DNA from: Alphaproteobacteria bacterium
GTDB lineage: Bacteria; Pseudomonadota; Alphaproteobacteria; UBA8366; GCA-2717185
Length of the DNA: 39,186 nt
Reading direction: 5' to 3'
NCBI GenBank assembly: GCA_040905865.1
Contig: JBBDQU010000033.1
Location: 1 to 39,186 of the forward strand
Part shown: positions 6,673 through 24,866 of the stretch, piece by piece
How the letters are laid out: each line of letters opens with the position of its first letter
Numbering within the stretch: position 1 is the first letter of the stretch
The notes under the pieces: model-generated
Database searches by the model: none
The model's input: only the letters and a program-made list of their open reading frames with translations
Told to the model about the DNA's origin: nothing
Translations under genes and position numbers: made by a program

Positions 6673-7470
6673 TTATGCGGCGCGAAAGCCCGGCTGTGCC
6701 ATGTTTCGGGCGCGGCAGCGGGCGCGGCACGCATCGCCATAGGCCCGGAACATGGCCTGCGACAGCGGCCATTGCAGCGGCCCCGGCGCTTCGGGATGCC
6801 ATTGCACGCCCAGCATGAAATTCTTTGCCGTGGGCATGCTGACGGCTTCGATCACGCCGTCGTCGCTGATGCCCTCAACCTTCAGTCCGGCGGCGGGCCG
6901 GTCGATCGCCTGCGCATGCAGGGAATTGACCATGACCTCGCTGGCGCCATCGGCAAGCTGCTGCAGATAGCCGCCTTTAGTCAGATGGACCGGATGGCGC
7001 GGCGCGTGACGTTCGCCGGAGGGCAGCGTCCGGTCCATGCGGTGTTCGTTCTTGCCGGGCAATTCGTGGACGAGGGGGTGCAGGGTACCGCCCAGCGCAA
7101 CATTGATTTCCTGGATGCCGAGGCAGACCCCGAACAACGGCAGTCCGGCATCAATGGCCTTGCGGACCAGCGGCAGGACGGTTGCATCCCGGCGCGGGTC
7201 GTGCAGGGTGCCCTTGCGGCTCGGCGGGCCGCCGTAATGGTGCGGTTCCACATTCGGCGCACCGCCGGTCAGGAACAACCCGTCCAGCCGGTCGACCAGC
7301 GCGTCGAAGTCATAGCGGTCGCCGAATGCGGGCAACAAGACGGCCATGCATTCCGCTGCGCTGAATATAGCTTCGATATAATTCCCGCCGGTGCGGTGCA
7401 TGCCACGCTCGTCTTCGATGGCGTAGTTGGTGGGAATACCCACAATCGGCAGTGATTCGTTACGACTCAT
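6673..7470 (-). CDS. Gamma-glutamyl-gamma-aminobutyrate hydrolase family protein (peptidase C26)
   Basis: Class-I glutamine-amidotransferase fold used as a hydrolase (PuuD-like family). From the ATG at 7470 it has 265 residues. The nucleophile is Cys116 in FGVCLGIQEINV; His225 and Glu227 in GVQWHPEA complete the triad. The substrate-side motifs LTGGAPNVEPHHYG and VNSLHAQAID are also typical. A TTG start 36 bp upstream (7506) is open but adds residues that do not align with the family, and its GGAGG is only 2 nt away. Putrescine-pathway genes are not nearby, so the true gamma-glutamyl substrate is unknown. 127 bp separate it from the downstream FAH gene. Confidence 0.87.
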   Translation of the reverse strand: MSRNESLPIVGIPTNYAIEDERGMHRTGGNYIEAIFSAAECMAVLLPAFGDRYDFDALVDRLDGLFLTGGAPNVEPHHYGGPPSRKGTLHDPRRDATVLPLVRKAIDAGLPLFGVCLGIQEINVALGGTLHPLVHELPGKNEHRMDRTLPSGERHAPRHPVHLTKGGYLQQLADGASEVMVNSLHAQAIDRPAAGLKVEGISDDGVIEAVSMPTAKNFMLGVQWHPEAPGPLQWPLSQAMFRAYGDACRARCRARNMAQPGFRAA

Positions 7471-7597
7471 GGGTTTAAGGATATCTTCCGGCGCGGATAT
7501 CGGCAAGACCTCCGGGCCGCTGGCAGGCTAAAATAATTGTGCAGTGCGGCATGCGCGGCGGCCTCACGGTGCCGCGACCCGCGCTTTTTTGGCGATC

Positions 7598-7645
7598 ATT
7601 GGCATTTATTGGCTTTTGTATGCATTTATTGGCATCCGTGGCATT
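7598..7645. repeat. Cluster A: five decamer repeats of type RTTRRCATYY
   Basis: Consecutive 10-bp units begin at 7598 (ATTGGCATTT), 7608 (ATTGGCTTTT), 7618 (GTATGCATTT), 7628 (ATTGGCATCC) and 7638 (GTGGCATTC, one base short). The period is one helical turn, so the GGCAT core is presented on one face of the DNA. A second cluster with the same unit lies at 7779-7808. Confidence 0.75.
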
Positions 7646-7778
7646 CAGCCGCTTCCTTCGTTACCGTCGCCGGCCCGGGCCTCGCCCGAACCAGTCTCTC
7701 CGGCGGGGCCGAATCCTCTCACGAGATGATTGAGGAAGGGTGTGGCGGGAAAGCCGCCCCCGCAAAAAAAGTCTCCCG

Positions 7779-7808
7779 TTATACATCGATTAACATCCGT
7801 TAACATCG
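7779..7808. repeat. Cluster B: three decamer repeats of type RTTRRCATYY
   Basis: Units at 7779 (TTATACATCG), 7789 (ATTAACATCC) and 7799 (GTTAACATCG) repeat with an exact 10-bp period. Unit 7789 and cluster A unit 7628 differ only in the two central purines (AA versus GG), so both clusters appear to be built from one motif. Confidence 0.75.
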
Positions 7809-8089
7809 GTCCCGTCACTCGCAGGCTGAATTGTCCTGTTCTGGAATACAATTGTTTTCGCAATCATTGCCGGCCATGCGGCTGACGCCGGAACGAACCG
7901 CGATCCGGCCTGCCAGTAAAATTGGAACCCGTAACCTATCACAAAAAGAACAAAAACGCAACATTCTCAATCAGCGTATTATATCCGGCGCTGCCCGGGA
8001 CGAACTGTAGGTCGCCGGGACCCGCCGGTCTCGTCTGGCCGAAGCGGATGTCCGCGTGTAAAACGGTGGCCTGAAACCAGGCCGGAGAC

Positions 8090-8437
8090 ATGACAATGCC
8101 CGAATTCCTGACCGGTGCGGCGGCGTGGCAGCGGATTGCCGTTGTGTTGCTTGCGGCGGTCGCGGCGCATCTGCTCGTGAGGCTGATCCGCACCGTTACG
8201 GTCCGGGCGATGACCAGCAGCCTGGCGGACCGGATCAACAAGACCCGCACCGTCATCAGCCTGATTTCCAGCGGGCTCGTGGTTACGTTGTATTTTTCGG
8301 CAATCGGCTTCGCACTGTCGGAATTCGGCGTGCCGGTGACGACCTGTTTTGCGAGCGCGTCCATCATCGGGCTGGCGGTCGCCTTCGGATCGCAGGGGCT
8401 GGTTCAGGATATGGCCACTGAATACCGGGGCCATTAG
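8090..8437 (+). pseudogene. Truncated MscS-family mechanosensitive channel
   Basis: 115 codons encode two membrane helices and the start of the pore helix (TM3) of a small-conductance mechanosensitive channel. The segment ASIIGLAVAFGSQGLVQD (about residues 90-106) is the diagnostic MscS pore motif. Intact channels continue into a beta domain with a TGxFxxxE-like segment; here the frame ends seven residues later in TEYRGH and a stop, and the ZIP gene begins 6 bp on. I cannot find the missing part in the neighbouring intergenic DNA, so this looks like a 3' deletion rather than a frameshift. GGAG sits 3 nt before the first ATG and 9 nt before an in-frame ATG at 8096, which may be the better start. 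Confidence 0.75.
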
Positions 8438-24756: not shown

Positions 24757-24835
24757 AAATCTCGGGATTGTTCTTAGCCATTTGAAATAATTACATAATT
24801 ATATTTCCTGCCAAATGATTGGGTGATGCGATAAC

Positions 24836-24866
24836 CCTATTTTGCACAAAAAATATGCAAAATAGG
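24836..24866. promoter_or_regulatory. NtrC-like enhancer within a 31-bp inverted repeat
   Basis: CCTATTTTGCA (24836-24846) and TGCAAAATAGG (24856-24866) are perfect 11-bp arms around 9 bp. Inside lies TGCACAAAAAATATGCA, which matches the NtrC pattern TGCAC-N7-GTGCA except for one base. Its centre is about 120 bp upstream of the predicted glnK start point, a normal enhancer distance. It is also about 100 bp upstream of the divergent ubiquinone hydroxylase gene. Confidence 0.65.

Follow-up and report, generated by a model that had tools for sequence, protein, structure and literature searches.

Phased decamer arrays in an apparently lineage-specific family of dispersed intergenic units of uncultured alphaproteobacteria

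Introduction

The window (the whole stretch of 39,186 nucleotides of alphaproteobacterial DNA that was analysed) has two clusters of decamers repeated with a 10-bp period in a gene-poor interval. Are they a feature of this one place, such as the scar of a lost mobile element, or copies of something more widespread, and what would bind to them? The original prediction favoured cooperative protein binding on one face of the DNA, as at the arm sites of an integrase, and a possible attachment region.

Phased arrays in the window

Both clusters are located on the + strand (TRF rows 7598–7635 and 7776–7807). The predicted 10-bp spacing was confirmed, but the unit count and phase of the first cluster needed correction: of the five units placed at 7598–7645, four are exactly in phase, whereas the fifth (7638–7645) is one base off register. 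Module A (7599–7638, + strand; model E 2.3e-5, PWM 35.6 bits) consists of the decamers TTGGCATTTA at 7599, TTGGCTTTTG at 7609, TATGCATTTA at 7619 and TTGGCATCCG at 7629. A weak in-phase unit, TTGGCGATCA, lies ahead of it at 7589 (+ strand), and a T6 tract (7585–7590, + strand) occupies the position where most modules carry an A-tract. Module B (7780–7809, + strand; model E 3.3e-8, PWM 52.0 bits) contains exactly the three units described for the second cluster, TATACATCGA at 7780, TTAACATCCG at 7790 and TTAACATCGG at 7800, with an A7 tract (7764–7770, + strand) 10–16 bp ahead of its first decamer.

Four triple-unit chains were counted in 7507–8089, compared with at least one in only 1 of 3000 first-order Markov resamplings, the motif being taken from the same data. 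A motif-free lag-10 test gave a weaker signal: each half had 15 of 20 matches, whereas 300 resamplings averaged 9.4 and reached at most 16. The arrays of the window are real and beyond chance, but they are not local.

On the 5′ side of the arrays is a Peptidase_C26 (glutamine amidotransferase class I) gene (6673–7470, − strand), towards which the unit would be transcribed. Its orthologue in G001 is accompanied by an array at the corresponding place. The MscS-like gene on the 3′ side (8090–8437, + strand; a 115-aa ORF), which lies outside the unit, is truncated as predicted, after about 105 residues, and an intact 283-aa homologue is found in a different context in G003 (L002:1501–2352). A promoter-like stretch at 7926–7966 (− strand, 18.8 bits) faces the arrays; it is weak by sigma-70 rules and includes a LexA-box-like variant, GAAC-N7-CAAC, at 7948–7962. 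No strict sigma-70 match was found within 7400–8150 of the window. Elsewhere in the window, another AT-rich intergenic stretch, near 24800, contains a perfect 11-bp inverted repeat (CCTATTTTGCA / TGCAAAATAGG, 9-nt loop) at 24836–24866.

A dispersed family of modules

The exact pattern TTRRCATNNNTTRRCWT has 49 matches in the genome to which the window belongs (G000) and 0 for the reversed control; with one mismatch allowed, the numbers are 87 and 10. A sequence-only module model built from 52 copies out of G000 and G003 found 59 places in G000, 49 and 57 in its genus-mates G001 and G003, and 5, 23 and 15 in G002, G006 and G008, respectively, with no match in the other nine of the 15 genomes searched. 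A PWM, trained on 52 copies from the same genomes that it scored, detected 197 modules at 12 bits or more in 100 fetched loci, 94 of which have at least one, and 0 in equal-sized shuffled sequence. Instead of a single attachment scar, as had been proposed, the fetched loci of the window's own genome hold 30 module clusters. The window arrays thus appear to be one copy of a lineage-specific family of dispersed intergenic units in uncultured alphaproteobacteria. A literature search found no description of such units among the titles listed.

Some loci carry other repeats near the arrays. Another intergenic repeat, about 130 bp long and likewise dispersed, resembles the mosaic repeats of rhizobia and occurs at L075:4771–4908, L083:6333–6471, L080:4205–4329, L084:5087–5214 and L077:4787–4928. 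At L081:622–2309 there is a long tandem repeat with a period of about 66 bp and many copies of 73–82% identity, probably a repeat protein gene.

Module anatomy

A module consists of an A-tract and usually three phased decamers (TTRRCATNNN), three being the commonest in-phase unit count (110 of 197 modules). When the columns at −16 to −12 from the first decamer were measured in arrays found by the decamers alone, A was present in 70–96% of 30 B arrays and 56–81% of 16 A arrays. The A-tract was also seen in 29 of 71 modules from genomes outside the training set, compared with 1 of 71 random 12-mers, a count that is biased because the model that found those modules already includes the A-tract. 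The exact phase of the decamers and the fixed distance of the A-tract from the first of them make cooperative binding of a protein on one DNA face, as originally suggested, a good candidate reading of these sequences.

Two decamer classes, TTAACAT and TTGGCWT, coexist within one genome. The leading letters differ by species: TTAACAT in G000 (72 of 173 scored units), TTGGCAT in G001 (55 of 127) and G003 (64 of 169), and TTAGCAT in G006 (19 of 28).

The units have one to five modules, all oriented one way, and neighbouring modules less than 800 bp apart have an identical direction in 89 of 89 pairs. The pooled module spacing is non-random (jitter p 0.0005 for 71 spacings up to 160 bp), with a best period of 11.25–11.5 rather than 10.5 and uneven values by genome (0.05, 0.35 and 0.02). 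Because the period is not clean and the genomes are uneven, inter-module phasing was given no weight. The array strand agrees with the local GC skew in 30 of 82 cases (p 0.02), which was not used because it is confounded by gene direction, and replication polarity was dropped as an explanation.

In 24 units with a clear far end, the terminal inverted repeats have a mean of 6.17 compared with 5.89 after permutation (reached by 20 of 300 permutations; the longest is 8). Target-site duplications in these units were likewise close to the permuted value (6.08 and 6.02), and none was evident in the empty-site alignments.

The facing motif and the solitary TerS gene

Beyond the last module lies a promoter-like motif that faces the array (CTTGA...TATATTCCT on the reverse strand). 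It scores at least 10 bits in 81 of 100 module clusters; upstream stretches and shuffled sequences each reach this score in only 5 of 100. The same PWM reaches 10 bits in 53 of 100 cases on the opposite strand of the same stretch because this DNA is AT-rich and partly self-complementary. A plain sigma-70 score gave 69 of 98 on the array-facing strand against 34 of 98 on the other. In some units, including that of the window, where it is weak, the facing motif is the LexA-box-like variant GAAC-N7-CAAC. All five matches of an exact LexA-like box in G003 are at array loci, and five other genomes have none; lexA itself in G000 has GAAC-N7-GAAC.

The space between the last module and the facing motif contains either short variable DNA without a gene or one gene of a single type, a solitary SF6/SPP1-type terminase small subunit (TerS). 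The distance is 18–203 bp in 69 of the 81 motif-bearing clusters and exceeds 350 bp in 11, ten of which hold TerS; the eleventh is the weak second cluster of L165. Most module clusters are without TerS. Empty and TerS-bearing units share promoter and leader, and the leaders of L117 (empty) and L172 (TerS) are near-identical.

The protein matches Terminase_2 (E 2.1e-13), PHROG 51 (E 1.6e-18) and the SF6 small terminase (HMM E 2.8e-11 to 3zqp). When residues 1–130 of the G003 copy were modelled (pLDDT 79.9), the DNA-binding domain had a fold like that of 4zc3, with an rmsd of 1.3 over 56 columns (Foldseek E 0.08); the best chain overall had an E of 0.008 and none was below 0.001. Among solved structures, SF6 small terminase is the nearest.

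The TerS genes are convergent with the modules, and in most copies the 3′ end touches or overlaps them. An opposite-strand module was found within 400 bp of the stop codon in 10 of 16 TerS genes. No module above threshold was found near the other six, of which L115 is cut by a contig end, L153 and L163 have variant repeats by eye, and L071, L125 and L141 have none. The G006 TerS at L153:4499–5026 has at its end three coding copies of a 15-bp repeat (GAAAATGTTAACCCC-like), in which the same core is differently spaced.

Among five close TerS copies, dN/dS over the first 110 codons is 0.11–0.38, and these copies appear to be under purifying selection. Against the divergent L080 and L172, the values are 0.36–0.76, and two further copies, L077 and L171, look damaged by eye. 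At E ≤ 1e-6, the TerS subfamily occurs in five of six array-bearing and none of five array-less genomes within the family; G005 has a weak match (E 8.4e-4), and in G008 (62% complete), which has arrays, TerS was not found.

A phage origin of the arrays was rejected on three grounds. A tblastn search with a 110-aa TerS query against 50,697 phage records gave no match at 1e-3. TerS relatives elsewhere, in viral and genome contigs, showed no excess of period-10 repeats over chance at their 3′ ends: 8 of 99 loci reached rank p ≤ 0.05, and four of the eight came from the window's own genus. None of 77 viral stretches with the triple pattern had a TerS inside the stretch.

Proposed function of the units

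Based on these sequence features, we propose that the arrays are the recognition end of short intergenic units and that the decamers are candidate protein-binding sites, most likely for the TerS of the family itself, a reading to which we give a probability of roughly 0.43. TerS made from the gene-bearing units would form a helix-turn-helix oligomer that wraps bent, helically phased decamer DNA, both at its own unit and at the empty ones. Most immediately, this would probably create a polar block or mark of nucleoprotein on the downstream side of the unit promoter. The empty units have both ends in common with the TerS units and may be non-autonomous derivatives or products of internal deletion.

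The proposal is favoured by the copy number and lineage limits of the family, the 89-to-0 polarity, the A-tract and facing motif, the co-occurrence with TerS and its presence in the long units, the match to SF6, the purifying selection on close copies, the orthologous pairs that differ in TerS (see below), and the shared leader of L117 and L172. It is weakened by the six of 16 TerS genes without a module, the TerS-less G008, the relatives elsewhere without period-10 repeats beyond chance, the 77 viral stretches without TerS, the dN/dS of divergent copies, the weak motif of the window, the unclean spacing, and the lack of target duplications or inverted ends. Moreover, the two decamer classes that occur side by side in a genome need not be due to a single protein. 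The SF6 DNA-binding domain is described as nearly sequence-independent (PMC4737164), which counts against a simple one-protein-one-motif reading. Wrapping is a proposal for the pac DNA of SPP1-like phages, in which it is favoured by AT-runs and by bending (PMC4737164).

A further step would be that the units form a class of dispersed element derived from phage with TerS as its only gene, in which the solitary TerS proteins seed and maintain tens of pac-like arrays across the chromosome. From these arrays, as fixed polar starts, host DNA would be packaged by a resident machine that is phage-like or gene-transfer-agent-like. Contig C85 of G000 has a phage-like cluster (L208:14887–17635 and L209:100–9659) with a large terminase subunit (TerL, phrog_38), an endolysin, a tail fibre and a portal protein (PF12236). 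This TerL looks vertically kept and perhaps gene-transfer-agent-like, because several genomes from a different family in the order have it at 59–66% identity. It is located at 16–18 kb, and the modules of C85, among the matches listed, are at 87.5–87.7 kb only. The TerL of G000 occurs in four of six array-bearing and none of five array-less genomes of the family, numbers that are small and come from related genomes; G012 and G020, from another family, have TerL and no array by the module model. On these counts, packaging of host DNA from the arrays is possible but unproven, and we consider this extension quite doubtful. If packaging were guided by the sites, they would indicate the places from which chromosomal DNA exits the cells of a group of uncultured bacteria.

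Even if a packaging role is false, the units are a family of dispersed elements whose binding motif appears to have shifted genome-wide from species to species. An orphan TerS is easily mistaken for prophage debris; here, close copies appear to be selected and lie beside tens of matching phased sites. The many natural sites and the species-specific letter changes offer a setting in which to test the unsettled question of how TerS recognizes DNA.

Flanking genes and regulation

The same arrays could instead be operators of a winged-helix response regulator or another transcription factor of the OmpR/TorR type, forming a lineage-specific regulon to which the TerS units are bystanders. We regard this explanation as somewhat unlikely. 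Half-sites in 10-bp direct repeats suit such factors, the positions of the arrays are kept between orthologous loci, and, of the 98 clusters for which a 5′ gene was called, 60 have the start of this gene beside the array, so that the facing promoter could then drive it. However, the arrays lie behind a gene stop in the other 38 and between convergent genes in 18 of 80 clusters with both flanks called (directions from a home-made gene caller), and they are downstream, not upstream, of the facing promoter-like motif. Sites of promoter operators or response regulators upstream of target promoters were rejected on these directions. In addition, no common function was seen in the first 25 of 93 Pfam families of the flanking genes, the TerS in 10 of 11 long units would require a separate cause, and the decamer letters change genome-wide by species. 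At one locus, an IS1595-type transposase gene (L077:6197–7150) lies between two array clusters.

Comparison between genomes

Among G000, G001 and G003, 21 orthologous locus sets were found, and in 20 of them both the 5′-side gene and its relative orientation agree; at a cut-off of 45% identity, no orthologous pair with G006 or G008 was found. Of 18 orthologous pairs that were aligned, 11 have homology that extends from the 5′ gene through the first module and ends 18–39 bp past the start of that module's first decamer, so the repeats are not the unconserved, randomly decayed sequences that would have spoken against the original prediction. In the pair of the window and G001, the homology ends 46 bp before the first unit, and an array is still kept at the same place. 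Two genera have the decamers, A-tract and facing motif in common, while beyond the first module the DNA often cannot be aligned even between genomes of one genus. Many of the gene borders that the units occupy are conserved, and the genes on either side may point in either direction.

Orthologous loci differ in how many modules and units they contain, one clear example being an additional complete module of about 72 bp. Three orthologous pairs (L066/L165, L067/L164 and L080/L114) have TerS at one member only. Two sites were tested for the absence of whole units. At the first, G003 and G001 carry a unit, and in G000 the two genes are 7 bp apart; loss in G000 is at least as likely as insertion because the other two genomes share the unit. 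At the second, G008 has about 32 bp where G006 carries a unit; in G004, this site, which is flanked by the L234 and L238 matches, is occupied by about 1.6 kb of different DNA (C242:10940–12544). The originally suggested link to mobile or phage DNA is therefore retained in part: the units are dispersed and multi-copy, present or absent at the two tested sites, and, where they bear a gene, associated with a phage-type TerS, but the reading as a single attachment scar was rejected.

Such variation would also fit neutral intergenic repeats, functionless, inherited and spread by recombination. The absence of units at two sites, the other intergenic repeats at some loci and the inter-module spacing without a clean helical period agree with this explanation. 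We consider it unlikely, because the decamers, A-tract and facing motif are shared by two genera though the DNA past the first module often cannot be aligned, because the polarity is 89 to 0, and because the close TerS copies appear to be under purifying selection.

RNA elements and recombination sites

The facing promoter-like motif, followed on the transcript strand by the decamers and then a T-tract, would also suit small non-coding RNA genes or leader peptides, with the decamers acting in the transcript. The ten stretches folded had z values of −1.83 to 1.51, flanking inverted repeats were not above permutation in 158 modules, and Rfam at the gathering threshold found only a tRNA in 14 sources. 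These three results speak against a structured RNA element or a terminator hairpin and, together with the exact 10-bp phase, which points to duplex DNA, make RNA genes or leader peptides improbable.

No integrase was named among 69 of 87 proteins beside the arrays of the window's own genome. In the complete PHROGs table of these 69 flanking proteins (E ≤ 1e-10; 19 families, about half of them nameless), no family is called a recombinase, terminase or capsid protein, and the first 25 of the 93 Pfam families include no recombinase. A single tail-fibre-like protein is found at L083. The occurrence of arrays at many unrelated intergenic sites, with no recombinase named among the flanking proteins scanned, counts against a recombination site. 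Arm-type sites of a tyrosine recombinase or an integrated-element scar, suggested by contiguous decamers resembling the P′1–P′3 arm sites of lambda and by the end of homology shortly after the first module in 11 of 18 pairs, are hardly credible given the 69 of 87 flanking proteins without a named integrase, the 30 clusters in one genome and the lack of evident target duplications in the empty-site alignments or the 24 units.

Comparison with known systems

The units that would be recognized by TerS share features with three known systems. SaPIs and other PICIs encode their own TerS, which redirects packaging, as the gene-bearing units here encode theirs. They differ in size and content: the present units are roughly 150–900 bp, and no integrase, regulatory or replication module was named among the flanking proteins scanned.

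Like MITEs, RU and RIME elements, the units are short, intergenic, multi-copy and lineage-specific and have longer gene-bearing relatives. Unlike MITEs, they have no detected terminal inverted repeats or target duplications (24 units), their gene is not a transposase, and they are polar, with one promoter-like end and one that resembles a protein-binding site.

The third system is the pac site of SPP1 and SF6 with its TerS. The SPP1 pac site is described as carrying direct repeats where the TerS gene starts, together with AT-runs, by which bending is favoured (PMC4737164). Here, the repeats lie instead where TerS ends, on its 3′ side, the decamers are strictly phased, relatives of TerS elsewhere are without them, and the units have no adjoining TerL and occupy dozens of dispersed chromosomal sites. 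As in the phages, however, TerS has a like DNA-binding domain (3zqp and 4zc3, above), and in 10 of the 16 cases it is encoded beside its putative site, with a module within 400 bp of the stop codon.
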